Part shown: in pieces, positions 20,564 through 43,300 of the stretch
How positions within the stretch are numbered: the first letter of the stretch is position 1
Layout of the letters: each line of letters begins with the position of its first letter
DNA from: Bacteroidales bacterium
GTDB taxonomy: Bacteria; Bacteroidota; Bacteroidia; Bacteroidales; F082
Length of the DNA stretch: 45,230 nt
Assembly: GCA_017466405.1 (NCBI GenBank)
Contig: JAFTUF010000011.1
Span: 1-45,230 of the forward strand
Direction: 5' to 3'
Program-made: the position numbers and the translations under genes
The notes under the pieces: generated by a model
Databases searched by the model: none
Told to the model about the DNA's origin: nothing
Seen by the model: the letters and a program-made list of their open reading frames with translations, nothing else

Positions 20564-23104
20564 ATGAAAAAAATTTTACTTTTTGTGATTGCGTTATTGT
20601 CATTCAATATGATACACGCGCAAGAGAGAGCTTTTATCGTTAACGAATCTTTCAACGGCTCATCGATGCCAGAAGGCTGGTACTTCACAGGCGAAGGCTC
20701 AGAAAATTTCAGAATCAACACTTCTAACAACGCTGGCGGCGACCCTAACGAATTGTATTTAAAAAGTTCGCCTTTCATCACAAGTGGAATTCATTTGGTC
20801 ATGGCGACAGCCAACCTCACCAATGTTGAAGAAGTCGGTATCTCTTTCAAGCATTATCTCAACAACGACCAACAAAGCAGCACTATCGGCATCGCCACAT
20901 CATCCGACAACGGCGCTACATGGAACACAGCATGGTCGCATACTTACTCAGAAGCTTCATCAACAGGACAATATACAATCAATGAAACAGTCAGCACTCC
21001 CGATATGGGAAAGAACAACGTGCTTTTCTGCTTGTTCTTCGAAGGCAACACCTATAATATTAATAAGTGGTTCTTCGACGACATCACTATCTTCTCGCAA
21101 GTTAGCGGCGCCGACTTACAACTCTCCAGTATAGATGTCGATGCTCTCACTCAGGCAGGTCAAGTGGGTGTTGACTTCACTATCAACAACTCCGGCGACG
21201 AGACAATCTCTTCTTTCGTAGCGACATACAGCGTCGATGGTTATGAAAGCGTCACAGAGACTTTCAACACCAACCTCGCTCCTTCAAGCAACCAGCAATT
21301 TACATTCAGCAACACAATAGGATTATTGCCAGGAACTTATCTCCTCAACATCGACATCGTTTCTGTCAATGGAGAAAGCGATGCTGAATCAAGCAACAAC
21401 CACCTCTCAAAAGAAATCAAGACTTATCTTAAAGCCGTACAGAGAACTCCTATGATAGAACACTTCTCAAGCTCAACATGCGCTCCTTGCGTCAATGTCG
21501 ATAACTTGATGGGACAACTTACGGCTAATAACCCAGGCAAATACACTTACACCAAATTCCCTGTCGATTGGCCAGGAATGGGCGACCCTTACGCAACAGA
21601 CGACTGCATCGTGAGAAGCGATTATTACGAAGTTTATACAGTGCCTCAGATAGCTTTCGACGGACAAGTTCAGTCGAGCGCTGTGAACCAAACTTCTTTA
21701 GATGAGAGACTTAACGTCCCATCATACATCGACATCGTTGGTGCTTTCGATATTGTGGAAAACAATACAATTAAAGTCATCGCCGACATCATCTCTTACA
21801 TCGACATGCCTGACGTGAAAGTGTTCTTATCGGTAAACGAAAAGACAACTACAGAAAACGTAGGTTCTAATGGTTTGACAGAGTTCCATCATATCTTCAT
21901 GAAAATGTTAGGCAACATCAACGGCATAGAGACAAGTTTCGCAGCAGGTCATTATCAACGTTTTGAATTCACATACGACATGTCGGATACCAATATGGAA
22001 GAAATCGACGACTTGGAAGTAGCGGTTTGGGTTCAGAACTACGAGTCAAAGGAAATGTATAACAGCAGCTTCTTACACGAATACAGCGAGCATCTCTATC
22101 CAGCACAGAATCTTGTAGTTGAAGGAAACACCGTCAGCTGGGAAGCACCGGAACAAGGCAATCCTTCAGGTTACAATGTATATATTAATAATGAGTTGTC
22201 AGCAGAGAACAGCACCTCACTTTCATACACCGCAGATGAAACAATAGAGATAGTTTCTGTAGAAGTAGTTGCTGTTTATGGCGACAATGTTTCAATTGGA
22301 ATAACAAATATAGAACATGACGTTTGCGACGCTCCTGATAACGTAGTCGCTACCGCCGGAGAAGACGATATCGAAATAAGCTGGGATGCTATCGACGGCG
22401 CAACAGAATATCAGTTATATCGTAACAGCGCGCTCTTAACAACAGTGTCATCAAACTCTTACACCGACAGCGACATTGAACTTGGAACGATGTATTGCTA
22501 CACTTTGAGAAGCGTCTGCGGTGAAGGAAGCTACTCTGCTTTCTCTGAAGAGTCGTGCGCTCAGGTAGGCGAGAAACCTTGCGACGCTCCAACAAATCTC
22601 AACGCAACAGTAGAACAAGACGTTGAAGGTTATGAATATAAGTTCAAAGTAACTATGACATGGGACGCTGTTGATGGAGCTTCAGGCTACGAAGTTTATA
22701 TCAACGGTTCTTGGTTCGGAATGACAAGCGACAACTTCTATATCGCAGGTTCCGACAACGAAGGCAGTTTCGATTTTGCTGTCACTACATTATGCGCAAC
22801 AGGCGAATCTGAGATGTCGGAGTCACATACCGTCGTAGTTCAAGATGTGTCTTTGGAAGAATATGAAAGCTCATTGGAAATTTATCCTAACCCAGTGAAA
22901 GACAATCTCACTATCAAAGCTAATACGAGCATCAAAGAAATCAACATCTATAATATCATTGGCATCAATGTATATAAACAATCATTGACATCTGTTGAAA
23001 ATTGTCCATTGACTATTGACATAAGTTCATATAACAGCGGAGTTTACTTCATTAAGATTGAAACCAACGAAGGCGAGATTATTAAACAATTTATAAAAGA
23101 ATAA
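20564..23104 (+). CDS. Omp28-type T9SS-exported protein, array member 1 (three Fn3)
   Basis: 846 residues. Signal peptide 1-19 (NMIHA, then QER). Choice-of-anchor-J/cleaved-adhesin module ~22-180 (ATSSDNGATWNTAW; WFFDD). CARDB-like module ~183-288. Omp28-type thioredoxin-like domain ~292-520, with MIEHFSSSTCAPC (Cys306/Cys309) and the cis-Pro loop TVPQIAFDG. Three Fn3 modules follow (~525-600, 600-685, 687-775); the last two begin with CDAP and have a second Cys near the end, suggesting disulfides. Sorting domain from IYPNP (KEINIYNIIGINVYKQ), ending KQFIKE. Array members 1 and 7 and the final gene share this sorting-domain type. The next gene starts two bases after the stop, so they form an operon. 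Redox activity at the cell surface is inferred from the fold only. Confidence 0.88.
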   Translation: MKKILLFVIALLSFNMIHAQERAFIVNESFNGSSMPEGWYFTGEGSENFRINTSNNAGGDPNELYLKSSPFITSGIHLVMATANLTNVEEVGISFKHYLNNDQQSSTIGIATSSDNGATWNTAWSHTYSEASSTGQYTINETVSTPDMGKNNVLFCLFFEGNTYNINKWFFDDITIFSQVSGADLQLSSIDVDALTQAGQVGVDFTINNSGDETISSFVATYSVDGYESVTETFNTNLAPSSNQQFTFSNTIGLLPGTYLLNIDIVSVNGESDAESSNNHLSKEIKTYLKAVQRTPMIEHFSSSTCAPCVNVDNLMGQLTANNPGKYTYTKFPVDWPGMGDPYATDDCIVRSDYYEVYTVPQIAFDGQVQSSAVNQTSLDERLNVPSYIDIVGAFDIVENNTIKVIADIISYIDMPDVKVFLSVNEKTTTENVGSNGLTEFHHIFMKMLGNINGIETSFAAGHYQRFEFTYDMSDTNMEEIDDLEVAVWVQNYESKEMYNSSFLHEYSEHLYPAQNLVVEGNTVSWEAPEQGNPSGYNVYINNELSAENSTSLSYTADETIEIVSVEVVAVYGDNVSIGITNIEHDVCDAPDNVVATAGEDDIEISWDAIDGATEYQLYRNSALLTTVSSNSYTDSDIELGTMYCYTLRSVCGEGSYSAFSEESCAQVGEKPCDAPTNLNATVEQDVEGYEYKFKVTMTWDAVDGASGYEVYINGSWFGMTSDNFYIAGSDNEGSFDFAVTTLCATGESEMSESHTVVVQDVSLEEYESSLEIYPNPVKDNLTIKANTSIKEINIYNIIGINVYKQSLTSVENCPLTIDISSYNSGVYFIKIETNEGEIIKQFIKE

Positions 23105-23106
23105 AG

Positions 23107-25128
23107 ATGAAGAGAGTACTTGTACTAACATTTGCATTATTGCTTTCAACAGCAATGTTTGCTCAGAGCAGAGCCATACTGCTTAACGAATCGTTTGAGA
23201 CGCTGAACGCTCCACAAGGCTGGGGCGTACATGGCGGCGGCAACGCTAACTGGAACGTAAGAAACACCGACAAAGCAGGCGGCAGTCCTTGCGAGTTAGA
23301 GTTCTTCTGGGACCCTCAGTTCGTTGGAACATCGTATATGTCGATGGGAACATACGACTTCACAGGCATCGAAGGTGTCGCTATTTCTTTCAAGCATTAT
23401 TATGAAAACTTTGAGAACTCAGCAAGTATAGGTATCGCTACTTCTTCCGACGGAGGCACTACATGGAACACAGCATGGACAGAAGAATTCTCTACAACAG
23501 GAAGATACGTCGTCAATGAATATGTCACCTCTCCTGACATGGGTAAATCCAACGTGAAGGTCGCTCTGTTCTTCAACGGCGACTCTTACAGCATCAACTA
23601 CTGGTGCTTCGACGACATTATGATGTATGTCCAAGAAGAGAACGACCTCAACCTGCTCAGCATCGACGTGGCAGATGCCATCAGTCTTGGCGATGCAGAG
23701 ATTGTTTTCACTGTAAGTAACTTAGGCACAGAGAAAGTCGAGTCTTTTGAGGCAAGATATCAAGTCGAAGGACAAGAAGCAGTGACAGAATCATTCCAAG
23801 TTGAGATTGCATCATACGAAGAAAGACAGGTCGCTTTTGAGACACCTGCTTTCTTATTCCCTGGCGATTATAACTTAAGCATCGAAATTGTTTCTGTCAA
23901 CGGAAGCGACGACCAAGACCCAAGCAACAACAGCGCTGAGAAAGAAGTAGAGGTTTGTATAGGCGTAGCACAGAGAATCCCAATGATAGAACACTTCTCA
24001 AGTTCTACATGTTTCCCTTGCGTTTATGTCAACGTCGATATGGACGCTCTCACAGCAGCCAACCCTGGCAAATACACCTACACCAAATATCCTATGAACG
24101 GACCAGCACCTGGCGACCCTTATTACACAAACGAATGCGGAACAAGAAGAACATATTATAATGTCAACAGCGTGCCTCAGATTTTCTTGGACGGCTTAAA
24201 TGTTGACGCTCCTGTAACACAAGAGAAGTTAGACAACAGATATAACACACCTGCTGTCGTCAACATCAGAGGCGCTTTCGAAGTAGAAGACAACACCATC
24301 AAGGTGACAGCCGACTTCATGGCTTATACTAACATCAGCAATGCAAGAGCTTATATCTCTGTCAACGAGAAAGCAACCACAGGAAACGCATTAACTCCAA
24401 GTGAAGGCGGTAACGGCGAGCCGGAATTTCATCACATCATGATGAAGATGTTAGAGAGCGCACAAGGTAAAGTGATGAGCATCAGCGAAGGACAATATCA
24501 ACGCGTTGAATATTCTTACGATATGTCAAATACAAATATGGAAGACATCAACGACTTGGAAGTATCGATATGGTTGCAAGACCTCACCTCAAAGAATGTC
24601 TATAACAGCCATTACGCTTACGAATATACCGACCACTGCTATCCAGTGAGAAACCTTACACATACAGCATCGACCGACACTGAAGAGACATTCAGCTGGT
24701 CAGCACCAGAAGCTGGCACTCCAACAGGATATAACGTCATCGTCAACGGTGAGTTGGTAATGGAAAACACACAATCAACATCTTACACATTCGACTACGA
24801 CGGAGAAATCTTCGTTGCTGAAGTAGTGGCTCTTTACGCTGACGGCAAGACATCAGTCGGAGTGGTAGAGACATTCGGCGATGGTATCAACGTGATGGAG
24901 ACAGCAGAATCATGTTTCAGCATCTATCCTAATCCAGCAAAAGACGTCGTTAAAATCTCAGCTATCGAAGGTCAGGCTTCAGTTGTAAGAATTTATAATG
25001 TGATGGGAATGATGGTCGATGAAGTTGAAGTCAATTCAGACAATATGGAAATCAACATCTCAGACTATACACCTGGCATTTATTTCTTCAATATTGAAGG
25101 AAAGACTGTTAAAATGATAAAAGACTAA
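23107..25128 (+). CDS. Omp28-type T9SS-exported protein, array member 2
   Basis: 673 residues with the array architecture: signal peptide 1-19 (STAMFA, then QSR), anchor-J ~22-178, CARDB ~180-285, Omp28/thioredoxin-like ~288-515, one Fn3 ~520-595 and sorting domain ~600-673. The active-site-like motif is CFPC (Cys302/Cys305), the only copy with Phe; the cis-Pro loop is SVPQIFLDG. A small insertion (ALTPSEGGNGEPEF) lies where others read NVGxNGETEF, just before the invariant His-His of FHHIMMKM. The 3' end from 24919 to 25040 is identical over 122 bases to member 3 (27003..27124). It follows member 1 by two bases; a separate promoter core lies before member 3. Confidence 0.88.
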   Translation: MKRVLVLTFALLLSTAMFAQSRAILLNESFETLNAPQGWGVHGGGNANWNVRNTDKAGGSPCELEFFWDPQFVGTSYMSMGTYDFTGIEGVAISFKHYYENFENSASIGIATSSDGGTTWNTAWTEEFSTTGRYVVNEYVTSPDMGKSNVKVALFFNGDSYSINYWCFDDIMMYVQEENDLNLLSIDVADAISLGDAEIVFTVSNLGTEKVESFEARYQVEGQEAVTESFQVEIASYEERQVAFETPAFLFPGDYNLSIEIVSVNGSDDQDPSNNSAEKEVEVCIGVAQRIPMIEHFSSSTCFPCVYVNVDMDALTAANPGKYTYTKYPMNGPAPGDPYYTNECGTRRTYYNVNSVPQIFLDGLNVDAPVTQEKLDNRYNTPAVVNIRGAFEVEDNTIKVTADFMAYTNISNARAYISVNEKATTGNALTPSEGGNGEPEFHHIMMKMLESAQGKVMSISEGQYQRVEYSYDMSNTNMEDINDLEVSIWLQDLTSKNVYNSHYAYEYTDHCYPVRNLTHTASTDTEETFSWSAPEAGTPTGYNVIVNGELVMENTQSTSYTFDYDGEIFVAEVVALYADGKTSVGVVETFGDGINVMETAESCFSIYPNPAKDVVKISAIEGQASVVRIYNVMGMMVDEVEVNSDNMEINISDYTPGIYFFNIEGKTVKMIKD

Positions 25129-25141
25129 AGACATTATTAAT

Positions 25142-25149
25142 TATATTTG
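25142..25149 (+). promoter_or_regulatory. Promoter core of array member 3
   Basis: TATATTTG matches TAnnTTTG in the 50-base gap before the ATG at 25179. Readthrough from member 2 is also possible. Confidence 0.45.
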
Positions 25150-25178
25150 CAAATTATAAATCATTAATTTCAAAGACT

Positions 25179-27212
25179 ATGAAAAGAATATTACTTTTTG
25201 TGTTTACGCTGTTTATCACAACAGCTATGTTCGCTCAGACAAGAGCATCATTCATTAATGAATCATTCGACGGCAGCGAGTTTCCAGAAGGATGGACAAT
25301 AGCCGGTTCAGGTTCTAACAGCTGGTCTATCGAAGCTAGTACAAATGCGGGCGGCTCCCCTAACGAGCTGATGCTTTACTACAACCCAAGCTTCAACGGC
25401 ATCTCGCGTGTAGTGATGAATCCTGTCGATTTGACTGGCGTAGATGATGTTGTCGTTTCATTCAGACATTATCTCGACAACTATTCTTACAGTAGCATTA
25501 TCGGTATTGCCACTTCATCTGACGGCGGAACCACATGGAACACCGGATGGCAACAAGAGTACAGCATGACAGGTGGCGCTTTCATCAATGAGACCATCAC
25601 AACACCTGACATGGGAAAAGACAACGTTCTCTTCTGCTTGTTCTTCGAAGGTGATTCTTACAATATCACAAGATGGTGCTTCGACGACTTCGACATCTTC
25701 TCACAAGAAGAACTCGACCTCAAAGTAGTAAGCATCGACATCCCAGAAATAATCCCTGCTGACGAGACTGAGATTTATTTCACAGTACAAAACGTAGGTA
25801 AAACAAGCATCAACTTATTCGATGTTGAAGTAAATGTCAGCGGATGGGACGAACCGGTGGTAGCAACAATCGACCAAGCATTGGTTCCTTTTGAAAAGAG
25901 ACAGATTTCATTCAGCAACTTCAGCAATGTCACACTTCTTGCCAATCCTCAAGACTCATATTATCACATCAGCGTTGAAATAGTAAACGTTGACGGCGTT
26001 GCCGATGATGACGCAACCAACAACAAAGTAGAAAAGAATGTCTTTGCTGCTTGGGGCGACACTCAAAGAACAACAATGATTGAACATTTCACAAGCTCGA
26101 CCTGCGGACCTTGCGTCGCTGTCAACTACACAATGAACCAGCTCACCAACGCCAACCCTGGCAAATACACCTATACAAAATATCAGATGAGCTGGCCTTC
26201 TCCTGGCGACCCATACTATACTGAAGAAGGCAACACAAGAAGAAAATTCTACGGATGCGACGCTGTACCTACAGTATTCTTCAACGGTTCTTACGTCAGC
26301 GCTACCATCGTTCAAGAAATGTTAGACATAGAAAATAGCGCTCCTGCTTACGTCAACATCAGAGGTGCTTTCAACGTAGAAGGCAACACTATCAACGTGA
26401 TAGCCGACATCATGTCATACGTCAAATTAGAAAACGTTTCAGCATACATCTCAGTCAACGAGAAAGTGACTACAGGCAACGTAGGTAACAACGGTGAGAC
26501 AGAATTCCATCACGTCATGATGAAGATGTTGGAAAATGCCGACGGCAACACCATCAGCATCGAACCTGGTAAATATCAAAGACTCGAATTCTCATACGAT
26601 ATGTCATCGACAAACGTTGAAGAAATGAGCGACCTTGAAGTAGCAATATGGGTACAGAATCCAAACAATAAAGAAGTATTTAACAGCAAGTTCGCTTACG
26701 AAAACACAGAACACCGCCACCCTGTCAGAAACTTGGTTGAGACAACATCAGCAAAAGGCACAAGAACATTCAGCTGGGACGCTCCTGAACAAGGAACTCC
26801 AACAGGATATAAAGTCTATGTAGATGGAACATTGGCAGCAGGTAATACTACCGAGACATCTGTCAGCTACGACACAGGCAAACAGGTCGTATTGGTGGAA
26901 GTCATCGCATTATATGAAGGCGGAAAGACATCTGTTGGTGTCGTTGAGAAATTCAACAAAGAAGACGTGAACACAACAGAAAACGAAATGACATCAAACG
27001 TAAGCATCTATCCTAATCCAGCAAAAGACGTCGTTAAAATCTCAGCTATCGAAGGTCAGGCTTCAGTTGTAAGAATTTATAATGTGATGGGAATGATGGT
27101 CGATGAAGTTGAAGTCAATTCAGATAATATGGAAATCAACATATCAGACTATACACCTGGCATTTATTTCTTTAATGTTGAAGGAGAAGTTGTTAAGGTA
27201 ATAAAAAATTGA
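25179..27212 (+). CDS. Omp28-type T9SS-exported protein, array member 3
   Basis: 677 residues. Signal peptide 1-19 (TTAMFA, then QTR); anchor-J with ATSSDGGTTWNTGW and WCFDDF; CARDB-like module with a longer middle (GWDEPVVATIDQALVP); thioredoxin-like domain with TSSTCGPC (Cys309/Cys312) and cis-Pro loop AVPTVFFNG, the most thioredoxin-like of the set; FHHVMMKML; one Fn3 with APEQGTPTGYKVYVDG; sorting domain SIYPNPAKDVVKIS. MIEH is preceded by QRTT where most copies read QRIP or QRTP. It ends with its own terminator at 27274, closing the first sub-cluster (members 1-3). Confidence 0.88.
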   Translation: MKRILLFVFTLFITTAMFAQTRASFINESFDGSEFPEGWTIAGSGSNSWSIEASTNAGGSPNELMLYYNPSFNGISRVVMNPVDLTGVDDVVVSFRHYLDNYSYSSIIGIATSSDGGTTWNTGWQQEYSMTGGAFINETITTPDMGKDNVLFCLFFEGDSYNITRWCFDDFDIFSQEELDLKVVSIDIPEIIPADETEIYFTVQNVGKTSINLFDVEVNVSGWDEPVVATIDQALVPFEKRQISFSNFSNVTLLANPQDSYYHISVEIVNVDGVADDDATNNKVEKNVFAAWGDTQRTTMIEHFTSSTCGPCVAVNYTMNQLTNANPGKYTYTKYQMSWPSPGDPYYTEEGNTRRKFYGCDAVPTVFFNGSYVSATIVQEMLDIENSAPAYVNIRGAFNVEGNTINVIADIMSYVKLENVSAYISVNEKVTTGNVGNNGETEFHHVMMKMLENADGNTISIEPGKYQRLEFSYDMSSTNVEEMSDLEVAIWVQNPNNKEVFNSKFAYENTEHRHPVRNLVETTSAKGTRTFSWDAPEQGTPTGYKVYVDGTLAAGNTTETSVSYDTGKQVVLVEVIALYEGGKTSVGVVEKFNKEDVNTTENEMTSNVSIYPNPAKDVVKISAIEGQASVVRIYNVMGMMVDEVEVNSDNMEINISDYTPGIYFFNVEGEVVKVIKN

Positions 27213-27235
27213 TAATTGAAAGTTGAAAATTTGTA

Positions 27236-27257
27236 GGGACGTATATTGCATACGCCC
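27236..27257. repeat. Short palindrome GGGACGTAT-ATTGC-ATACGCCC
   Basis: CGTAT and ATACG pair around a short loop with GGG/CCC outer pairs. It belongs to the small palindrome family of 2901, 6981 and 18955. It lies between the stop of member 3 and its terminator. Confidence 0.5.
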
Positions 27258-27273
27258 AAAGAATAAAAATGTT

Positions 27274-27309
27274 AAAGAGCTCTTAGAAATAGGAGCTCTT
27301 TATTTTATT
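27274..27309 (+). terminator. Terminator with gagctc stem (copy 1)
   Basis: AAAGAGCTC (27274..27282) and GAGCTCTTT (27293..27301) form a perfect 9-bp stem with loop TTAGAAATAG, followed by a T-rich stretch. Stem and loop recur at 29607; a broken copy is at 45072. Confidence 0.85.
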
Positions 27310-27340
27310 GTCAACAGACAACAGACAACAGTCAACAGAC
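27310..27340 (+). repeat. Heptad repeat copy
   Basis: Reads GTCAACAG, ACAACAG, ACAACAG, TCAACAGAC, then tttatccataatgtagagac. It sits directly after the gagctc terminator. The rest of the gap to 27540 contains an AT-rich stretch and a leader with GGTTCT/AGAACC complementary arms (about 27482 and 27522), but no gene. Confidence 0.9.
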
Positions 27341-27540
27341 TTTATCCATAATGTAGAGACGAATATCGTAACCAAATATCTAAAGAGCTGCTGTGGAAGG
27401 CAGTTTTTTTTTTGATAATTAAAAAAATATTACAATATTTGCAATGCGAATAATCGCGACTTCTATTTTGGGATAAATGAGGTTCTGCCCATAATCTGGA
27501 AGTTAAGAATAATCAAATAGAACCCGATAATTATAAGCTT

Positions 27541-29580: not shown

Positions 29581-29606
29581 TGACTAAAGTCTAATGTCTA
29601 AAGATT

Positions 29607-29638: not shown

Positions 29639-29641
29639 GTT

Positions 29642-29672
29642 GTCAATAGACAACGGACAACAGTCAACAGAC
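29642..29672 (+). repeat. Heptad repeat copy
   Basis: Reads GTCAATAG, ACAACGG, ACAACAG, TCAACAGAC, then tttatgcacgattatgg. One base differs from the copy at 6933 within the repeat proper. Confidence 0.9.
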
Positions 29673-29696
29673 TTTATGCACGATTATGGAAGATGA

Positions 29697-29808: not shown

Positions 29809-29816
29809 TATCTTTG
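29809..29816 (+). promoter_or_regulatory. Promoter core of array member 5
   Basis: TATCTTTG matches TAnnTTTG 27 bases before the ATG at 29843. The preceding 'gtctttcgtctttagacttttc' stretch is nearly the same as before 34302. Confidence 0.6.
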
Positions 29817-31866: not shown

Positions 31867-31897
31867 GTCAACAGACAACGGACAACAGACAACAGAC
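31867..31897 (+). repeat. Heptad repeat copy
   Basis: Reads GTCAACAG, ACAACGG, ACAACAG, ACAACAGAC, then tttgtccataatgtagagac. It starts six bases after the stop of member 5. Confidence 0.9.
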
Positions 31898-34055: not shown

Positions 34056-34086
34056 GTCAACAGACAACGGACAACAGTCAACAGAC
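34056..34086 (+). repeat. Heptad repeat copy
   Basis: Identical to the 6933 copy across the repeat proper (GTCAACAG, ACAACGG, ACAACAG, TCAACAGAC), then tttgtgcacattaatggg. It starts six bases after the stop of member 6. Confidence 0.9.
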
Positions 34087-34110
34087 TTTGTGCACATTAA
34101 TGGGTGATTT

Positions 34111-34241: not shown

Positions 34242-34301
34242 TACCTTTAGGTTCCTTCAAAAAAAACTTTCGTCTTTTGTCTTTCGCCTTTAGACTTTTT
34301 T

Positions 34302-34309
34302 TATCTTTG
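34302..34309 (+). promoter_or_regulatory. Promoter core of the members 7-10 sub-cluster
   Basis: TATCTTTG, with TTTG at 34276..34279 a slightly long 22 bases upstream. It precedes the ATG at 34336 and overlaps an in-frame GTG at 34309, which is therefore an unlikely start. Confidence 0.55.
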
Positions 34310-34335
34310 TGCTCTTGTTTAATAATAATAAATCA

Positions 34336-36654
34336 ATGAAAAAATCTTTACTATTAGCTTTAGTGTTAATGCTTTCGTGTTCTTTATTCTCACAGAGCAG
34401 AATGACGTATTTGAAACAGACTTTCGATTCGGAAGGAATTCCTTCTGATTGGACAATTATGGGTGTTGCTCAAGACAATTGGTCGATATGGCCTACTAAC
34501 CAAGCCGGTGGCGACCCTGGTGAGATAAAATTATATTGGAGACCGGCTTTCAACGGAACGACTCGTCTGGTATCGCCTGCCGTAAACACCACAGGACTCG
34601 ACGAAATAATATTCTCGTTCAAAGGTTTCTTAGACAACTACATGAACGTCCCACATCAAGTCGGTATCGCTACTTCATCTGACGACGGCACTACATGGAA
34701 CACGGTATGGGAAGAATCTTTCGCAACACCAAATCAAGGTCAGCATAGCTTCATCCAAACTATTGACAACGACGACATCGGTAAAGAAAACGTGAGATTC
34801 TGTATCTATTATACCGGCGACTCCAACAATATGAACGGCTGGTACTTCGACGATATAGAAGTATATACCTTAGACGAACTCAACCTCAGCCTGCTCAGCA
34901 TCGACTTTCCAAGTATCGTGAACATCGACGCTACTGAAGTAGGTTTCAAAGTTCAAAGCACAGGTATCACAACAGTGACATCTTTTGAAGCACAATATCA
35001 GGTAGAAGGCAGAGAGCCCGTCGTAGAGACATTCAGCACAGAATTAGAATCTACAGACAAAGCTGACTTCGTATTTCAAACACCTCTGACTTTAGCTCCC
35101 GGAACATATAACATGAACGTAAAAATATTGAAAGTCAATGGCAGCGACGACATCGCCAGCGACAACGAAGCAAGTACATCAATCGATGCTGCTATAGGAA
35201 CGATACAACGTACCCCAATGATAGAGCACTTCTCTAACTCAAACTGCGGACCTTGCGTTTATGTCAACCAATCGATGGGCATACTTTTGGAAAACAATCC
35301 TGGCAAATACACTTACACCAAATATGCAGCACGTCTGTTCTTCGACGGCGACGACTATTACACCGACGAGAGTATGGCTAAATACACATACTACAACGTA
35401 GTTGGTCTTCCTCAAGTCTTCTTCGACGGCGTGGATTACGGCGCAGCAGCAGTGCCAGCAGCCGATTTCGCAGCTGAATATAACAGACCAGCATACATCG
35501 ACATCAAAGGCTCTTTCAATATGCAAGACAGCGTCATCAATGTCATCGTTGACGTGACAGCACTCGTTAACATCCCTGAGTTCAGGCTGCTCGCTTCTGT
35601 AAATGAAAAGACAACAACCGGTAACGTCGGCGCTAATGGAGAGACTGAATTCCACCACATTATGCTAGATATGTTAGACGACGAAGAAGGCACAGCAACA
35701 TCACTCAACGTGGGCGAGGTGAAACGTTTTGAATTTACAAGCAACTTGTCAGGCACCTTCGTAGAAGAACTCAACGACTTAGAGGTTGCTGTTTGGGCTC
35801 AGGACTATTACTCAAAAGAGGTTTACAACAGCCATTATATGTACGAATATACCGACGCTCATCCACATCCTATTCAAAATCTTAACATCGAAGGCTCTGA
35901 TGAAGACGCTACTGTTGACGTGACTTGGGATGCTCCTGAAGCAGGCGCTCCTATAGGATATAACCTATATGTAAACAACGAGTTAGTTTTAGAAAACACC
36001 ACCGAGATGTCTTATCATATCGATAACGCTGCTGGCATTTACACCATCATAGTGGCAGCACTTTACGAAAACGACATGACTTCTATAGGCGTGGCAGACC
36101 ACATCGTGATAGGTGATGACGTCTTCCCTTGCTTCGCTCCTACCAATCCTAAGGCTGAAGTAGAACAAGACGCTGCCGGTTACGAACACAGCTTTAAAGT
36201 GACATTAAGTTGGGACACTGTCGATAACGCAAAAGAATATGTCATTTATATCGACGATGAGATTCCAGTGAACACAACAGAGACATCATATATCGTTGGT
36301 TATGATGAAGAAGGCACACACGAATTCAAAGTGGCTACAATCTGCGAAGCTGGCATCTCCGAGCCATCAGAGACAGTTGCTTTTGAATTGATTGGCGTTT
36401 CTATCGAAGAACATGAGACATCATTAAGCATCTACCCTAACCCAGCAAAAGACAATCTCGTCATCAACACCGATATGAACATAAAAGAAATAAACATCTA
36501 CAATGTTGTTGGCATCAATGTTTATCAGCAATCATCAACATCTGTTGACAATTGTCCGATGACTATTGACATAAGTTCATATAATGCAGGCGTTTATTTC
36601 ATCAAAGTTAATACAGACAAGGGAGAATTTATCAAACAATTTATAAAAGAATAA
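34336..36654 (+). CDS. Omp28-type T9SS-exported protein, array member 7 (two Fn3)
   Basis: 772 residues from the ATG at 34336; an in-frame GTG at 34309 is rejected because it lies in the promoter core and would put nine polar residues before the signal peptide (1-19, MLSCSLFS, then QSR). Closest to member 6 in its first half. The Omp28 motif is SNSNCGPC (Cys304/Cys307), with Asn where the others have Thr; the cis-Pro loop is GLPQVFFDG. His-His is in FHHIMLDML. Two Fn3 modules: the usual one (APEAGAPIGYNLYVNN) and a second starting CFAPTNPKAEVEQDAAGYEH with a paired Cys (TICEAG). The sorting domain is of the member-1 type (KEINIYNVVGINVYQQ, ending KQFIKE). The stop is followed after two bases by member 8. 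Confidence 0.87.
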   Translation: MKKSLLLALVLMLSCSLFSQSRMTYLKQTFDSEGIPSDWTIMGVAQDNWSIWPTNQAGGDPGEIKLYWRPAFNGTTRLVSPAVNTTGLDEIIFSFKGFLDNYMNVPHQVGIATSSDDGTTWNTVWEESFATPNQGQHSFIQTIDNDDIGKENVRFCIYYTGDSNNMNGWYFDDIEVYTLDELNLSLLSIDFPSIVNIDATEVGFKVQSTGITTVTSFEAQYQVEGREPVVETFSTELESTDKADFVFQTPLTLAPGTYNMNVKILKVNGSDDIASDNEASTSIDAAIGTIQRTPMIEHFSNSNCGPCVYVNQSMGILLENNPGKYTYTKYAARLFFDGDDYYTDESMAKYTYYNVVGLPQVFFDGVDYGAAAVPAADFAAEYNRPAYIDIKGSFNMQDSVINVIVDVTALVNIPEFRLLASVNEKTTTGNVGANGETEFHHIMLDMLDDEEGTATSLNVGEVKRFEFTSNLSGTFVEELNDLEVAVWAQDYYSKEVYNSHYMYEYTDAHPHPIQNLNIEGSDEDATVDVTWDAPEAGAPIGYNLYVNNELVLENTTEMSYHIDNAAGIYTIIVAALYENDMTSIGVADHIVIGDDVFPCFAPTNPKAEVEQDAAGYEHSFKVTLSWDTVDNAKEYVIYIDDEIPVNTTETSYIVGYDEEGTHEFKVATICEAGISEPSETVAFELIGVSIEEHETSLSIYPNPAKDNLVINTDMNIKEINIYNVVGINVYQQSSTSVDNCPMTIDISSYNAGVYFIKVNTDKGEFIKQFIKE

Positions 36655-36656
36655 TC

Positions 36657-38657
36657 ATGAGAAAAGTATTTGTATTGTTTTTAGCATTATCGATTTCAGC
36701 AGCGATATTTGCACAGGACAGATCTATTTTATTAAGAGAGACTTTCGACGCTACATCTTTTCCAGAAGGATGGAGCACCTCTGAGACAGGAGCAGATAAC
36801 TGGGTCATCTCACAGACCAGCAAAGCCGGAGGCGACCTCAACGAACTTAAACTCAGCAACACTCCGCAAGCTGTAGGTATCACCAGAGTGATAACAAAAC
36901 CAGTTGACCTCACCGGATTAAGCAGCGTTGTCATCTCATTCAGACATTATTTCGACAAAAAAAGCGCAGGCGGTTCCATCGGCATCGCTACTTCATCCAA
37001 CAACGGAACCACATGGAGTCAAGCATGGACCAAGACATATTCTGAAGCATCACAATATTCAGTCGTTGAGTCAGTCAGCACACCTGACATGGGAAAAAGC
37101 AACGTCCTGTTCTGCATCTATTATCAAGGCAGCACAAGCAACATCAACGGATGGTATTTCGATGAGTTCGAAATCATGGTGATAGAAAACATCGACGCCA
37201 AAGCAGAAAGTATCGACATCCCTACATTGGTACCTGCCGGTAACACAGACATCGTCTTCTCAGTACAAAATGCAGGTCTCGACGAGATTACTTCTTTCGA
37301 AGCAAGTTATGAAGTAAAAGGAAGCAAAGTCACAGAGACTTTCAACGCTAACATAGCACAATTCGGTGTAGATCAATTCACCTTTGAAACACCGGCATAT
37401 CTCAGTCCTGGCGACTATAACCTCAGCATTGAAATCACATCTGTCAACGGAGAACAAGACCAAAACACCGTCAATAATGTATTTCAAAAAGACATCACTG
37501 TCGCTATCGGAGGCACACAGAAAATCCCTATGATAGAACATTTCTCGAGTTCTACATGCGCCTCTTGCGTTCCTCTCAACGAGACGATGGTAGCCTTGGA
37601 AGCAGCCAATGCAGGTAAATACACATACACCAAATACGCTATGAACTGGCCATCACCAGGCGACCCTTATTACACCAGCGATGGCGGTGTCAGAAAAGAC
37701 TACTACAACGTAAGTTCAGTGCCTTTTATCGCATTTAACGGAATATCAAACGGTTATTTTGCGATAACACAAGAAGAACTCGACGCTTCATACAACTCAC
37801 CTGCCTTCATCGACATCAAAGGCGCTTTCGATACTAACGGCGACGAGATTTCTGTCATGCTCGACCTGACATCTTATATCGATTTCTCTAACCTCAGACT
37901 GTTCGTCACAGTGAACGAAAAGACAACTCACGACAACGCATTATATAATGGCGAGACAGACTTCCATCACATCATGATGTATATGCTTACAGGAACACAA
38001 GGTTTAAATATCAGCATGAACGCAGGTGAAAGCCAACGTTTTGAATATTCATACGATATGTCAAAGACTAATATGGAAGAAATCGACGACCTTGAAGTGG
38101 CTGTATGGGTTCAAGACATCAACACAAAAGACATCTACAACAGCCAATATCTCTACGAATACAACGAACATCCTTATCCTGCACAGAACCTCACTTTGAC
38201 AGAAGACCGTAAGAATATCGAAGTGAGCTGGGACGCTCCAGAAGCAGGAACTCCATCAGGATATAACTTATATATCAACAGAGAATTAGTCTTGGAAAAC
38301 ACCACAGCTACATCATACGTCATCGAAAACGCTGTAGGTTATCAAGGCGTTGAAGTCGTCGCTCTTTACGCCGACGGCAGAAAATCGGTCAGCGTCATAG
38401 AGAGAGTTGGCGAGTCGTTGACAGAGAATGAAATCGTCTTAGGCATCTACCCTAACCCTGTCGACAACAACCTTTATTTAAACACAACAGAAAACGTCAA
38501 AGAAGTAAGCATCTATAATATATTAGGTGTCAGCGTTTATCAAAACAACGACTTCTCAGGCAGTTCTGTCGATGTAAGCAACTTAAACGAAGGCGTATAT
38601 ATCATCAGAGTAACAACCGACAACGGAAGAGTAACTAAAAGATTTATCAAGCAATGA
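36657..38657 (+). CDS. Omp28-type T9SS-exported protein, array member 8
   Basis: 666 residues. Signal peptide 1-19 (SAAIFA, then QDR). Its Omp28 motif is CASC (Cys301/Cys304): both cysteines are kept but the Pro before the second is Ser, unique in the array. The cis-Pro loop is SVPFIAFNG. The stretch before His-His is DNALYNGETDFHH, diverged from NVGxNGETEF. One Fn3 (APEAGTPSGYNLYINRELVLE). Its own sorting-domain type: LGIYPNPVDNNLYLNT, KEVSIYNILGVSVYQNN, ending TKRFIKQ. It starts two bases after member 7, and its last four bases (ATGA) overlap the start of member 9. Confidence 0.88.
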   Translation: MRKVFVLFLALSISAAIFAQDRSILLRETFDATSFPEGWSTSETGADNWVISQTSKAGGDLNELKLSNTPQAVGITRVITKPVDLTGLSSVVISFRHYFDKKSAGGSIGIATSSNNGTTWSQAWTKTYSEASQYSVVESVSTPDMGKSNVLFCIYYQGSTSNINGWYFDEFEIMVIENIDAKAESIDIPTLVPAGNTDIVFSVQNAGLDEITSFEASYEVKGSKVTETFNANIAQFGVDQFTFETPAYLSPGDYNLSIEITSVNGEQDQNTVNNVFQKDITVAIGGTQKIPMIEHFSSSTCASCVPLNETMVALEAANAGKYTYTKYAMNWPSPGDPYYTSDGGVRKDYYNVSSVPFIAFNGISNGYFAITQEELDASYNSPAFIDIKGAFDTNGDEISVMLDLTSYIDFSNLRLFVTVNEKTTHDNALYNGETDFHHIMMYMLTGTQGLNISMNAGESQRFEYSYDMSKTNMEEIDDLEVAVWVQDINTKDIYNSQYLYEYNEHPYPAQNLTLTEDRKNIEVSWDAPEAGTPSGYNLYINRELVLENTTATSYVIENAVGYQGVEVVALYADGRKSVSVIERVGESLTENEIVLGIYPNPVDNNLYLNTTENVKEVSIYNILGVSVYQNNDFSGSSVDVSNLNEGVYIIRVTTDNGRVTKRFIKQ

Positions 38658-40930
38658 GAAAGACATTTTTATTGATGTTCGCATTATTGTTGACGACAAC
38701 GATATTTGCACAAGAAGGACCATCTAACATCATCATCAGCGAGACTTTCGATTCGGCGAGTCTTCCTGAAGGATGGACTACCATGGGACCTGATGGCAAC
38801 GCTTCCAGCAACTGGTCGATTAGCAACACCAATTATGCAGGAGGTTCCTCTAACGAAGCACATCTCGGATGGAGTCCTCAGTTCTCAGGAAAGAACCGCC
38901 TCGTATCTCCTCCTGTCAATCTCACAGGCATACAGGAAATAGTGATTTCGATGAATCACTATTTTGAAAATTACAACTCAGCTTACAACACAATAGGCGT
39001 CGCCACATCATCAGACTACGGTTATACTTGGCATAGCGTCTGGGAAAAAGCATATTCAGAGACAGGTCAATACAGCATCGAAGAAAAGATTCTGTCACCT
39101 GACATGGGTTATGAAAATGTTTTGTTCTGCATCTATTACGATGGAAGTTCATTAAATTTCAAAAACTGGTATTTCGATGATTTTATCGTTAAGATTCAAG
39201 ACGACCTCGCCATCAACATTAATAGTATAAATATTAACGAGCGTCTCGGATCGGGTCCGCTTAACGTCAGTTTTGAAGTGCAGAATATGGGAAGCACCGC
39301 TATCACTTCTATCGAAGCCTCTTATCAAATCGACAATCAGGAAACTGTCAGCGAGACATTCTCAGTCTATATGACCAACTTCGAAGCTAACACTCTCTCA
39401 TTCAGCACAACAGAGACATTACTTCCAGGAACATACAATATCACCATTAACATCGACAAGGCAAATGGATGGGAGTTGGAAGATGACTACACACATTCTC
39501 TCAGCAAGCAGTTCAGCATCTCCATAGCACAAACACAACGTATCCCAATGATAGAACATTTCTCGAGTTCTACATGTGCGCCTTGTGTTTTGATAAATAT
39601 GCTGATGCACAACCTCACCGAAGCCAATCCTGGAAAATTCACCTACGTGAAATATCCTGTCAACTGGCCAAGTATGGGCGACCCTTATTACATTCCAGAA
39701 TGTTACGACAGAGTGTTATATTATAATGTATCGACGGCACCATTGGTATTTTTGGATGCCGTGGCACAAGTGTCGAATCAGACAGCACAGCCTGTCACCA
39801 ATTCAGCCTTGATGGCAAGATATAACACACCAGCTTTTGCCGACATAAGAGGAGCATTCAATATGGAAGGCAGCGTCCTCAATGGAATCGTCGATGTGAT
39901 GTCATACATCGACCTCACTAGCGCAAAGGCTTTTATCTCAATCAACGAGAAGACAACGACAGGTAATGTCGGCAGCAACGGCGAGACGGAATTCCATCAC
40001 ATAACGTTGAAAATGATTAACGAAGGCGAAGGTGTGGACGTAACTCTTAACGCCGGAGATTATCAACGTTATTTATTCTCTTACGATATGTCGGAGACTT
40101 ATGCAGAGGAAATGGATGACTTGGAAGTCGCTGTTTGGCTGCAAGACCCTGAGACAAAGGAAATTTTCAACAGTCATTTCTTATATGAATATGACGAACA
40201 TCCATATCCAGCCAGAAATGTAAGATTTACATCGGGCAACACATTGAAAATATCTTGGGATGCTCCAGAGATGGGACAACCAACAGGATACGATTTGTAT
40301 GTCAACAATTCATTGATGTTAAGCAATACAACACAGACATCCTTCAATGTTAACGCAGCTGATTTCTGTCTCGCTGAAGTTGTAGCTTTATATGGCGAGA
40401 AGAGCTCGGTAAGCGCAGTGAAGATTCACTCGTCACAGTTTGAGATTCCACAAAACCTGACAGCAGAAGTCGGCGATGGCAATATCACAGTGTCGTGGGA
40501 CGCAACAGAAAACGCTTCTGGATACAATCTTTATTGTAACGGTATTAAGATAACAGACATCAATTCAAATACAAGCGAGTACGTATTAGGTGATGTCGAA
40601 AACGGAGTAGAATATTGTTTCCAAATAAGCGCGGACTATGACAATTACGAGTCGGCATCTTCTGAAGAAGTTTGTGTCGTTTATACAGACATCGATGAGA
40701 TTGAAAGCGAGATTTTCGTCACTCCAAATCCTGCAGATAACTTCGTGAGAATTTCCGGAGCCAACGTTAAGGAAGTCAATATTTACAATAGTTTAGGAAT
40801 CTTGGTTGACAGATTTAATGTCGAAGATAATATCGTTAACGTCAATGTAGAAGATTACAGTTCAGGCGTTTATTTCGTCAATATAAAAACTCATCAAGAA
40901 AATATAATTAAAAAAATAATAATCAAATAA
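38654..40930 (+). CDS. Omp28-type T9SS-exported protein, array member 9 (two Fn3)
   Basis: 758 residues. Signal peptide 1-19 (TTTIFA, then QEG). Omp28 motif SSSTCAPC (Cys308/Cys311); cis-Pro loop TAPLVFLDA, with Ala instead of Val and Ala instead of the usual Gly. His-His lies in FHHITLKM. The first Fn3 contains APEMGQPTGYDLYVNN. The second, FEIPQNLTAEVGDGNITVSW, lacks the N-terminal Cys of the other extra modules but has two Cys (LYCNG; EYCFQ). The sorting domain is distinct (FVTPNPADNFVRISG, KEVNIYNSLGILVDRF) and ends with an Ile/Lys-rich tail (IIKKIIIK). Translation is coupled to member 8 by an ATGA overlap. Confidence 0.88.
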   Translation: MRKTFLLMFALLLTTTIFAQEGPSNIIISETFDSASLPEGWTTMGPDGNASSNWSISNTNYAGGSSNEAHLGWSPQFSGKNRLVSPPVNLTGIQEIVISMNHYFENYNSAYNTIGVATSSDYGYTWHSVWEKAYSETGQYSIEEKILSPDMGYENVLFCIYYDGSSLNFKNWYFDDFIVKIQDDLAININSININERLGSGPLNVSFEVQNMGSTAITSIEASYQIDNQETVSETFSVYMTNFEANTLSFSTTETLLPGTYNITINIDKANGWELEDDYTHSLSKQFSISIAQTQRIPMIEHFSSSTCAPCVLINMLMHNLTEANPGKFTYVKYPVNWPSMGDPYYIPECYDRVLYYNVSTAPLVFLDAVAQVSNQTAQPVTNSALMARYNTPAFADIRGAFNMEGSVLNGIVDVMSYIDLTSAKAFISINEKTTTGNVGSNGETEFHHITLKMINEGEGVDVTLNAGDYQRYLFSYDMSETYAEEMDDLEVAVWLQDPETKEIFNSHFLYEYDEHPYPARNVRFTSGNTLKISWDAPEMGQPTGYDLYVNNSLMLSNTTQTSFNVNAADFCLAEVVALYGEKSSVSAVKIHSSQFEIPQNLTAEVGDGNITVSWDATENASGYNLYCNGIKITDINSNTSEYVLGDVENGVEYCFQISADYDNYESASSEEVCVVYTDIDEIESEIFVTPNPADNFVRISGANVKEVNIYNSLGILVDRFNVEDNIVNVNVEDYSSGVYFVNIKTHQENIIKKIIIK

Positions 40931-40935
40931 TAATC

Positions 40936-40996
40936 GTCAAACAGATGACAGACTAACAGACACATACCCAAAATCTGTTGACCGTTGTCTGTTGAC
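40936..40996. repeat. Inverted pair of heptad repeat copies
   Basis: A degenerate copy in the usual orientation (GTCAAACAG, ATGACAG, ACTAACAGAC, from 40936) is followed by an opposite copy GTTGACCGTTGTCTGTTGAC (40977..40996). The two can fold into an imperfect hairpin followed by TTTT. It is the only opposite-orientation intergenic copy downstream of a plus-strand gene. Confidence 0.75.
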
Positions 40997-41017
40997 TTTT
41001 AAAAAAAATAATAAATC

Positions 41018-43300
41018 ATGAGAAAAACCCTACTTTTAGCAATGGCATTATTATTAGCCATGACGACTTATGCACAAAGCAGAGCCATTATCTTTAATGA
41101 AACATTCGACGGTACAACAACACCTACAGGTTGGAGCGTCATGAACAACGGAACCAGCAACTGGTCTGTCAGCCCTACCGACAAAGCCGGAGGTGAGCCT
41201 AACGAAATGCAGCTCTATTGGAGCCCAACTTTCTTCGGTGTTTCACGTCTCGTTACACCAGCCATCGATTTGACAGGAATCTCAAGTGTAGTATTTTCAT
41301 TCAAACACTATTTAGACAACTATCAGACAGCTAGCAGCGAGATAGGTATCGCCACCTCATCCGACGGCGGCGACACATGGAACGAAGGCTGGTCACAGTC
41401 GTATAACACCGACGGTCAATATAACGTCGATCAAACTATCAGCACAAGCGACATGGGCAAGAACAACGTCATGTTCTGCATCTACTTCGACGGAAACGCT
41501 TCAAACATCGACTATTGGTATTTCGACGACGTTACAATCTCAACATTGGAAAGCAACGACGCTAAGATGTTCAGCATCGACGTTGAACAATATTTACCTG
41601 CCGGTGACCTTGAGATCGCTTTCAGCGTAAGAAATGTCGGAAGCAACGACTTGACATCCTTCGAGGCATCATACGAAATTGACGGCACTACCGTAAGCGA
41701 ATCTTTCAACACAAATTTAGGCATGTTTGAAAACGGTCAATTCGCATTCTCAGAGAAAGTCAACTTGACTCCTGGCAATTACGAGTTGAAAATCGAACTC
41801 ACTTCTGTCAATGGTGGCGACGACAACGACCCTAGCAACAACACCTTGAACAAAGGACTCAGTGTCGCTATGGGCTCAACAAAGAGAATCCCTATGATAG
41901 AACATTTCTCAAGCTCCACCTGCGGACCATGTGTTTATATCAACTCACAGATGCACTCTGTCTGCAGCAGCAATGAGGGCAAGTTCGCTTACGTCAAATA
42001 TCCTATGTACTGGCCAACTCCTGGCGACCCATATAGCACCGACGAATCAACAGCGAGAAAAACTTATTACAACATCAGCGCTGTCCCTCAGATAGTTTAC
42101 GATGCAGTAAATATCGGCGCAGTGGTAGTCACAACAAACCAATTGGACGAAAGTATCAATTCAGATGCATACGTCAACATCAAAGGAGCCTTCGACATCG
42201 ATGGAACAACAATCAACGTGACAGCCGACGTAATGCCATACATCACAGTAGAAGGCTGCAAAGTATTTGTCTCCGTCAATGAAAAAACTACAACAGGCAA
42301 TGTTGGAACAAACGGCGAGACAGAATTTCATCACATCATGATGAAGATGTTGGACAATGCTGAAGGCAACGACCTCACTGCTGAAGCCGGCGAATATCAA
42401 CGCTTCGAATTCTCTTACGATATGTCACAAACTCACGTAGAAGAAATGAGCGACCTTGAAGTAGCAGTATGGGTTCAACATTATAACTCAAAAGAAATAT
42501 TCAACAGCACTTTCTTAAATGAATATACAGAACATAACTATCCTGTTCAAAATCTTCAGATGACAGAAAACGGCAACAATTTCGAGTTGACATGGGAAGC
42601 TCCAGAAGCAGGCAGCCCATCAGGATATCAAGTTATTGTCAATAGCGTTGTTGTTGAAGAAAACACCCAAGACTTGTCATACTCTTTTGAAAACACTGCA
42701 GACTACTGCATCGTAGAAGTCGTAGCTTTATATGGTGACAACAAGTCTATCGGCGTCATCGTAAACAACCTTTCACAGGATGAAGACCCTTGCATGGCTC
42801 CTACCAACTTAGGCGCTACTGTTGAACAAGACCTCGAAGACTATCAATATAAATACAAAGTAACTATGACATGGGATGCTGTTGATGGCGCTACTGGCTA
42901 CGAGGTTTATGTCAACGGTTCATGGTTCGGAATGACAAGCGACAACTTCTATATCGCAGGTTCCGACAACGAAGGCAGCTTCGACTTTGCTGTCACTACA
43001 TTATGCGCAGCAGGCGAATCAGAAATGTCGGAAACATACACTGTCATCGTTGAGGATGATGCTTTAGAAGAATATACAAACGAATTCGAGATTTATCCTA
43101 ACCCAGCAAACGACTTCGTGAAGTTATCATCTGTCGATGGTCAAATCTCTGTTGTTAGAATATATAACGTCATGGGAATGATGGTCGATGAGATTGAAGT
43201 CAATGCCAATGAAGTTGAGGTAAACATCTCCGACTATAACTCAGGAATTTATTTCTTCAACATCGATGGAAAAGTTGTTAAGGTGGTAAAGAATTCATAA
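41018..43300 (+). CDS. Omp28-type T9SS-exported protein, array member 10 (two Fn3)
   Basis: 760 residues. Signal peptide 1-19 (AMTTYA, then QSR). Omp28 motif SSSTCGPC (Cys302/Cys305), cis-Pro loop AVPQIVYDA, FHHIMMKML. Two Fn3 modules. The second (CMAPTNLGATVEQDLEDY, then GSWFGMTSDNFYIAGS) is nearly identical to the last Fn3 of member 1, including 56 identical bases (22712..22767 and 42923..42978). The sorting domain, however, is of the member 2-5 type (EIYPNPANDFVKLSSVDG; RIYNVMGMMVDE), so the gene is a mosaic. The last codon (Ser) and the stop lie in an AT-rich repeat, ending KNS where relatives end KN or KD. It probably continues the member 7-9 operon; there is no promoter core upstream. 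Confidence 0.88.
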   Translation: MRKTLLLAMALLLAMTTYAQSRAIIFNETFDGTTTPTGWSVMNNGTSNWSVSPTDKAGGEPNEMQLYWSPTFFGVSRLVTPAIDLTGISSVVFSFKHYLDNYQTASSEIGIATSSDGGDTWNEGWSQSYNTDGQYNVDQTISTSDMGKNNVMFCIYFDGNASNIDYWYFDDVTISTLESNDAKMFSIDVEQYLPAGDLEIAFSVRNVGSNDLTSFEASYEIDGTTVSESFNTNLGMFENGQFAFSEKVNLTPGNYELKIELTSVNGGDDNDPSNNTLNKGLSVAMGSTKRIPMIEHFSSSTCGPCVYINSQMHSVCSSNEGKFAYVKYPMYWPTPGDPYSTDESTARKTYYNISAVPQIVYDAVNIGAVVVTTNQLDESINSDAYVNIKGAFDIDGTTINVTADVMPYITVEGCKVFVSVNEKTTTGNVGTNGETEFHHIMMKMLDNAEGNDLTAEAGEYQRFEFSYDMSQTHVEEMSDLEVAVWVQHYNSKEIFNSTFLNEYTEHNYPVQNLQMTENGNNFELTWEAPEAGSPSGYQVIVNSVVVEENTQDLSYSFENTADYCIVEVVALYGDNKSIGVIVNNLSQDEDPCMAPTNLGATVEQDLEDYQYKYKVTMTWDAVDGATGYEVYVNGSWFGMTSDNFYIAGSDNEGSFDFAVTTLCAAGESEMSETYTVIVEDDALEEYTNEFEIYPNPANDFVKLSSVDGQISVVRIYNVMGMMVDEIEVNANEVEVNISDYNSGIYFFNIDGKVVKVVKNS

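Follow-up and report, generated by a model that had tools for sequence, protein, structure and literature searches.

We read the ten-gene array described here, with a probability of about 0.55, as an old tandem family of T9SS-exported thioredoxin-fold proteins that resemble HBP35 and in which body and tail follow different evolutionary rules. The bodies, from head to core, are inherited position by position, each as its own orthologue and under purifying selection. The last ~65 codons, which code the T9SS tail, are common to the paralogues of one genome to a much greater extent than the bodies. Tails of several sister species have in-frame tandem repeats of 7 or 8 nt, or palindromic repeats, that are found elsewhere in the genome. 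HBP35, T9SS tails, in-frame repeats in Rickettsia and intergenic heptamers were each known already; their combination is new.

Array layout, neighbours and protein architecture

The window, that is the whole stretch of 45,230 nt that was analysed, is the entire contig C10 and part of a 2.43 Mb genome, 95% complete, of a bacterium from the gut of grazing animals. Ten + strand ORFs follow each other between positions 20564 and 43300, as the earlier note had stated. Their products have 666-846 residues (g7 counted from ATG 34336) and align end to end with a mean column identity of 50%; g1 is 42-52% identical to the other tandem paralogues. Genes are spaced by 2 nt at two junctions and overlap by 4 nt at one. 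The contig stops 197 nt past g11, so the gene cluster may extend further. The features are listed below (OG, orthologous group; its numbers are labels of this analysis).

19120-20412, - strand: PLP-dependent enzyme gene (PF00291), divergent from g1
20516-20523, + strand: TATCTTTG box, upstream of g1
20564-23104, + strand: g1 (OG1), 846 aa; CAPC at 306; thioredoxin-like domain 21434-22105; tail 22880-23095 with a worn heptad repeat inside
23107-25128, + strand: g2 (OG2), 673 aa; CFPC; thioredoxin-like domain 23965-24645; tail 24922-25116
25142-25149, + strand: box like TATCTTTG (g3)
25179-27212, + strand: g3 (OG3), 677 aa; CGPC; thioredoxin-like domain 26058-26720; tail 27006-27203, DNA 94-95% identical to g2 tail
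27541-29580, + strand: g4 (OG4), 679 aa; CGPC; thioredoxin-like domain 28414-29070; tail 29374-29571, DNA 93% identical to g2 tail
29809-29816, + strand: box like TATCTTTG (g5)
29843-31861, + strand: g5 (OG5), 672 aa; CGPC; thioredoxin-like domain 30701-31375; structure modelled; tail 31655-31855, DNA 85-86% identical to g2-g4 tails
32029-34050, + strand: g6 (OG6/7), 673 aa; CGPC; thioredoxin-like domain 32893-33561; tail 33844-34044
34302-34309, + strand: box like TATCTTTG (g7)
34336-36654, + strand: g7 (OG6/7), 772 aa from ATG 34336 (781 from GTG 34309); CGPC; thioredoxin-like domain 35200-35874; tail 36430-36645 with a worn heptad repeat inside
36657-38657, + strand: g8 (OG8), 666 aa; CASC; thioredoxin-like domain 37512-38180; tail 38445-38648
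38654-40930, + strand: g9 (OG9), 758 aa; CAPC; thioredoxin-like domain 39530-40207; tail 40724-40924
41018-43300, + strand: g10 (OG10), 760 aa; CGPC; thioredoxin-like domain 41876-42544; tail 43091-43288
43543-43550, + strand: box like TATCTTTG (g11)
43585-45033, + strand: g11, 482 aa; Fn3-like modules (by eye); T9SS tail 44812-45024; no thioredoxin domain

Boxes of the TATCTTTG type lie within 80 nt of five of the 11 genes, that of g7 being 34 nt upstream of the ATG at 34336; the whole + strand has 23, or 0.04 per 80 nt. We take TAnnTTTG to be the Bacteroidota -7 box. The sole Pfam match listed for g11 is GH85_C, beside its tail, and g11 homologues are found at or near the array end in relatives.

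The gene neighbourhood is largely shared. Eight of the nine other genomes read (G060-G067, G070) have a homologue of the PLP-enzyme gene next to the array, or within it in the case of G064; G065 lacks one at this place. Two C1-peptidase genes adjoin the array in G064 (Pfam-tested), and Gln-Cys, His and Asn motifs are visible in them that we take to be those of C1 peptidases. A C1-like pair was recognised by eye, from size and N-terminus, in G061, G062, G065, G066, G067 and G070; one of the two genes is present in G063, and the G060 contig ends before that position. In the genome of the window the pair is found at the start of contig C28, so contigs C10 and C28 may adjoin. The C1 peptidases beside the arrays lack a T9SS tail and may be periplasmic. 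The G067 array contains a T9SS subtilase gene.

The T9SS sorting modules named in the earlier note are confirmed: all ten array proteins score above the curated cut-offs of PF18962 (Por_Secre_tail; 45-53 bits, cut-off 27) and of TIGR04183 (36-61 bits, cut-off 23), which identifies a type A sorting domain. Inspection by eye found a Met-Lys/Arg start and a hydrophobic stretch, as in signal peptides, in all ten (helix 2-19 in the g5 model). The anchor-J, CARDB and Fn3 modules that the note regarded as shared find support in the end-to-end alignment and in the g5 model, but each reaches its cut-off in only two of the ten proteins: CARDB in g1 and g2, fn3 in g1 and g9, choice-of-anchor J (NF038128) in g6 and g7, with g4, g8 and g9 below the cut-off for the last and five proteins unlisted. 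The remaining matches of the array to these models are sub-threshold or absent. As for the label Omp28/thioredoxin-like, its second half stands on the thioredoxin-like fold of the g5 model. The Omp28 half was dropped: none of the ten proteins reaches the PF11551 cut-off of 34.9 bits (weak matches in g2 and g6, the best being 34.2 bits in g6). The same Omp28 model scores above cut-off at ten other places of the genome.

A CxxC motif is found in all ten proteins, at residues 306, 302, 309, 307, 302, 304, 313, 301, 308 and 302 of g1 to g10 when g7 is counted from GTG. Taking ATG 34336 as the g7 start places its motif at 304, which narrows the previously given range of 301-312 to 301-309. Both cysteines are invariant (88/88) and the residues between them vary in the array family; a side group elsewhere (5/148 family members) has CxxxC instead.

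The g5 model (mean pLDDT 90.1) displays CARDB, Fn3 and anchor-J-type domains. Its residues 286-505 match HBP35 (hemin-binding protein 35 of Porphyromonas gingivalis) by VIA-align structure comparison, with the thioredoxin and beta domain fold present, and helix 305-318 starts at the second cysteine of CxxC. The resemblance is structural: with E limits of 1, 5 and 10, three sequence searches of the PDB did not list HBP35 (5y1a; identity 14%), nor was it among the 50 matches listed by Foldseek for the whole g5 model, which were long multi-domain proteins. The architecture is a jelly-roll head, a CARDB-like domain, an HBP35-like thioredoxin plus beta-sandwich core, one or more Fn3-like modules and a T9SS tail. 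HBP35 is described as ending at residue 344 with cysteines at 48 and 51 (PMC2907840); the longer array proteins differ from it by the jelly-roll and CARDB-like domains ahead of the core and by their occurrence in arrays of 7-12. The head resembles the cleaved-adhesin (K1-K3)/choice-of-anchor J domains of gingipains, but no protease domain is present in the same protein.

Copy number, orthology and selection on the bodies

Copies were counted by a thioredoxin-domain profile search (E 1e-60) in 99 genomes of the genus, including the one studied here. At least one match was found in 83 of them. Nine genomes have 7-12 strong copies (11, 9, 11, 10, 7, 9, 10, 10, 12), against 0-5 in the remaining 90. 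The genome of the window has 11 strong matches (ten in the array, one on contig C5) and two weak ones. The relatives with a name to which sequence searches led are MAGs; Bacteroidales is the title of many and Candidatus Limimorpha equi that of one. Among their hosts are roe deer, water buffalo, yak, cattle, goat and horse.

A quick maximum-likelihood tree was built from 142 bodies, after removal of a duplicate contig, of weak matches and of cores shorter than 300 residues; six of the 148 family members are absent from it, their domain start having been set by a weak first hit that left them too short. The window genes cluster with counterparts from other species (rows per group: g1 10, g2 6, g3 3, g5 9, g6/g7 10, g8 9, g9 9, g10 5), and g4 is firmly grouped only with the roe-deer genome G060. 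A recent duplication of the array genes was rejected on this tree; the origin by duplication proposed in the earlier note is itself supported. Gene order is 1-2-3-4-5-6/7-6/7-8-9-10 in the window, 1-4-5-6/7-8-9-10 in G060, 1-2-3-4-5-6/7-8-9-9b in G061 and 1-11-2-12-5-6/7-8-9-10 in G067. G064 is an exception, with array genes on both strands and the PLP-enzyme gene amid them.

Selection was estimated as pooled dN/dS (NG86) from six window-G060 pairs, the g6/g7 group being excluded, and seven G061-G070 pairs. The two sets gave, respectively, 0.095 and 0.108 for the head, 0.144 and 0.140 for CARDB, 0.092 and 0.065 for the core, 0.195 and 0.274 for Fn3, and 0.162 and 0.341 for the tail; these values are rough because dS is near 1 for window-G060 and could not be computed in three single cells.

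The earlier note had set ancient one-to-one orthologues with constant copy number against its view that the copies diversified for antigenic variety. Counterparts in other species, in nearly the same order and under purifying selection, are indeed what we find. The correspondence is incomplete: copy number varies, the nearest relative's array lacks counterparts of g2, g3 and one of g6/g7, a single clade contains both g6 and g7, and the g10 clade has a support of only 90. An antigenic or phase-variation array, whose copies diversify under immune or phage selection, would be in line with T9SS export indicated by the sorting domains, with tandem paralogues as divergent as these, and with the rearrangement attested by the two-strand array of G064. 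We nevertheless consider it very improbable. The dN/dS of head, CARDB and core is just 0.065-0.144 over the 13 orthologue pairs and not elevated, orthologues keep a nearly conserved order across species, and the portion that paralogues share is the tail, which mature cargo of P. gingivalis is reported to lose by cleavage (PMC4560394). Variety of ligands, with ten heads having fixed but different targets, is possible and fits better than antigenic variation.

Tail sharing and tail repeats

The common tails of the array genes are absent from the earlier note. Tails and bodies were compared for 79 array genes with whole tails, taken from the array contigs of nine genomes; two shortened bodies (one of G065, one of G066) were included in the body comparison. 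The nearest relative lies within the same genome for 0/79 bodies and for 54/79 tails; shuffling of the genome labels yields 7.8 such tails on average and 18 at most. A sliding 60-codon window, run on whole sequences, gives 0-8 same-genome nearest relatives out of 79 up to residue 603, 40/79 at 575-634 and 56/79 at 604-664, locating the switch from body to tail pattern in the last ~65 codons. Identity between paralogues drops at the tail start and at the stop codon.

Genomes differ in the extent of sharing. Same-genome nearest tails number 9/9 in G064, 10/10 in G065, 9/9 in G066, 9/9 in G067, 8/10 in the window (g10 a tie; g8 and g9 tails nearest to their orthologues), 3/7 in G060, 2/9 in G061, 4/9 in G062 and 0/7 in G070. 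Mean within-genome tail identity is 82% in G064, 82% in G065, 89% in G066 and 72% in G067, compared with 61% in the window, 59% in G060, 58% in G061, 57% in G062 and 57% in G070; that of bodies is 56-60% across genomes (58% in the window). Tail homogenisation is strong in four genomes and concerns some genes only, or none (G070), elsewhere. In the window it is most visible in g2-g5, whose last ~210 nt are 85-95% identical compared with 66-70% for the bodies. The roe-deer orthologues of g4 and g5 present tails 73% and 75% identical and bodies 86% and 78% identical to them. The Fn3 module of g10 is 81-84% identical in DNA to that of g1.

Heptamer repeats of the window are found in gaps and in the g11 tail:

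27312-27340, + strand: heptamer repeat, CAACAGA unit, intergenic
29644-29672, + strand: heptamer repeat, CAACAGA unit, intergenic
31869-31897, + strand: heptamer repeat, CAACAGA unit, intergenic
34058-34086, + strand: heptamer repeat, CAACAGA unit, intergenic
43292-43365, + strand: heptamer repeat, AATTCAT unit, 10.6 copies, spanning the g10 end and part of the gap that follows
44923-44947, + strand: intact heptamer repeat, GTTGTCC-type, inside the g11 tail coding sequence

Autocorrelation at 7 nt is 38.1% in intergenic DNA, 29.9% in tails and 25.0% in bodies, the weak signal in tails being due to repeats that occupy just part of a tail. Family contigs were scanned for tandem tracts of at least 24 nt with periods of 7 and 8, chosen after inspection; the same scan found almost none at lags 5, 10, 11 and 13. 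Tract coverage is 4.21% in intergenic DNA and 2.28% in T9SS tails, as against 0.10% in other ORF sequence, no hit having been removed by hand although some with AT-rich units called tail or ORF may sit at gene edges or in spurious ORFs. Genes with a tract amount to 32/148 family tails and 7/73 other T9SS tails, compared with 6/402 for the last 210 nt of other ORFs, 14/402 for the rest of those ORFs and 3/221 for the rest of T9SS genes (39/221 T9SS tails versus 6/402, Fisher p 2.4e-13, kinship between tails being ignored). All three frames of one strand are stop-free in 20/31 tail tracts versus 52/151 intergenic ones.

Repeats were also counted per genome with loose patterns taken beforehand from tails, in array tails exclusive of off-array family genes. 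All 28 array tails of G064, G065 and G066 have an in-frame 7- or 8-nt tandem repeat: a CAACRG 7-mer in 9/9 tails of G064 (six also with a palindromic GWAGRGACGC element), a CACCAAGT 8-mer in 10/10 of G065 and a GACTACAA 8-mer in 9/9 of G066. G067 has repeats in 8/9 tails (four CTACAGT, four the palindrome), G061 in 3/9, G070 in 2/7 and G060 in 1/7; the patterns are absent from array tails of the window (0/10) and of G062 (0/9). Worn heptads are nonetheless detected in the window tails of g1 and g7 (23 and 24 of 28 positions; 0/200 codon shuffles as good). The g5 tail is borderline (7/200), and the codon-shuffle test found no relic in the other seven. In the window's own genome the CAACRG pattern matches 188 times, overlaps counted separately, versus 17 for the reversed control. 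That repeats encode loops only was rejected: in a modelled G066 protein the first repeat lies in loop 703-708 and the second in strand 720-727 and the following turn (block-mean pLDDT over repeats 62-88).

Likeness of tails extends beyond the arrays. Searches with one query tail per genome, in which 40 of 157 (G066), 242 (G064) and 116 (G065) candidates were scored, found 75-95% identity to array tails and 67-87% to other places of the same genome. The repeat stretch alone is matched at no fewer than 14 (G066), 27 (G064) and 15 (G065) places of the respective genome. Other T9SS tails of the window's genome are 72-76% identical to the g2 tail. These values, and the nature of the tail as a sorting signal, would suit selection to fit each genome's own T9SS machinery, acting without DNA exchange. 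This is quite unlikely: several tail types coexist in the genome of the window (by eye), identity falls at both borders of the tail, the tails carry repeats without evident sorting role, and third positions are alike too. The last, 80% identical in tails and 44% in bodies of G066, argue for DNA exchange and not for protein selection alone.

Tail sharing would then likely come from gene conversion or unequal recombination between tails, as its pattern suggests, and the exchange would likely be tolerated in a cleaved sorting tag that requires just a fold and motifs. The CTD of P. gingivalis cargo is described as cleaved off at the surface (PMC4560394), so that tail changes need not alter the mature protein, and copies and repeats could spread. 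Repeats likely enter a tail and afterwards travel with the same tail-to-tail traffic. Nearly even odds may be given to a broader proposal, in which the T9SS tag is an exchangeable cassette: dispersed, often stop-free repeats would invade it in frame and provide the DNA homology by which its copying between genes is driven, and one species-specific tag would spread across old, separately conserved surface proteins. Judged by titles and abstract openings, T9SS tail exchange was not a topic of the papers that literature searches listed. Rickettsia palindromic elements are likewise dispersed repeats read in frame inside proteins, but are described as ~150 bp long and in unrelated genes (PMC10969869), whereas mostly 7/8-nt tandem tracts are concentrated here in secretion tails. 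The TAACTGA heptamers of Beggiatoaceae, Cyanobacteria and five Bacteroidetes are, as here, mostly intergenic 7-nt direct repeats; their unit differs, and the account in PMC4679880, as far as available, draws no link to secretion signals.

Possible role of the mature proteins and significance

All ten proteins have a CxxC at the thioredoxin active site, and redox activity, which the earlier note had considered possible, is supported as a possibility. We tentatively propose, at somewhat less than even odds, that the mature proteins act at the cell surface as thiol-disulfide oxidoreductases: every head would have a ligand of its own (candidates are a protein, a glycan or mucin), and disulfides of captured proteins would be opened for proteases. 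With peptidase genes next door, surface capture and opening of disulfide-rich proteins would be the most likely role; its chief competitors are hemin capture and the capture of a host enzyme. We know of no extracellular source of reductant.

HBP35 combines two activities, reducing insulin via its cysteines and binding hemin elsewhere in the chain (PMC2907840). Its mutant is reported to grow poorly without hemin (PMC2907840), and the array head appears, in the model, to resemble gingipain adhesin domains; hemin capture in place of disulfide chemistry is unlikely, as both cysteines are invariant in the family and would be unneeded if binding lies outside the motif. In passing, the array flanks revealed no heme gene. 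Surface capture of a host protein such as trypsin is just as unlikely. Its model would be protein 00502 of Paraprevotella clara, like the array proteins a T9SS-exported surface protein of gut Bacteroidota, termed Omp28-related, which brings trypsin to the surface in a T9SS-dependent manner (PMC9477747). Peptidase genes adjoining the array would suit such a role, but 00502, likened here by description only, is presented with Ig-like domains and, as far as that description goes, with no mention of thioredoxin (PMC9477747).

Whatever the role of the mature proteins, many unrelated cargoes carry the same kind of T9SS tail, with 110 tail matches in the 2.4 Mb genome of the window. To our knowledge there is no account of how T9SS tags come to be common to many cargoes. 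In the arrays, tag and cargo have separate histories within one gene, so that tag exchange becomes measurable, and short genomic repeats are seen to be translated in a protein part that is cleaved after export in P. gingivalis. Should the redox role be true, surface disulfide reduction would be a step in protein use by herbivore-gut bacteria. Should the tag be an exchangeable cassette, secretion signals would evolve as a genome-wide repeat family and their cargo gene by gene.

Omp28 and sorting-domain genes across the genome

Six genes scoring above the Omp28 cut-off (PF11551, 34.9 bits) are found on contig C60 of the genome that carries the array (G000), where they are clustered in small groups, and further genes over this cut-off occur as singletons on contigs C11, C55, C8 and C48. 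The T9SS sorting domain has 110 matches in the whole 2.43 Mb genome.

Omp28 genes in small groups, contig C60
24903-29053
54131-54631
66771-69039

Genes upstream of the array and intergenic repeats

Two genes upstream of the array were identified by Pfam matches. The first is adjoined by a 153-aa gene lacking a Pfam match, with which it possibly forms a toxin-antitoxin pair; the second is flanked by the genes of a 1485-aa protein and of the PLP enzyme.

10148-11188, Panacea gene (SocA-like antitoxin, PF13274)
18269-18700, ORF6N-domain gene (PF10543, 143 aa)

Several separate families of heptamer or octamer repeats (CAACAGA, TCTTTCG, AATTCAT and CTCAGCAA) are found intergenically, in gaps of the window and across the genome. 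The loose pattern CAACRG, overlapping matches being counted apart, has 188 matches genome-wide versus 17 for the reversed pattern.

Variation among relatives

Five family members form a side group in which three residues separate the cysteines (CxxxC; L171:7205-9292 and loci L158, L159, L122 and L125). The array of the same-genus genome G064 (L171/L172, G064:C98:7205-33735) is divided between both strands with the PLP-enzyme gene inside it, an arrangement that represents an inversion or a relocation relative to the other species.
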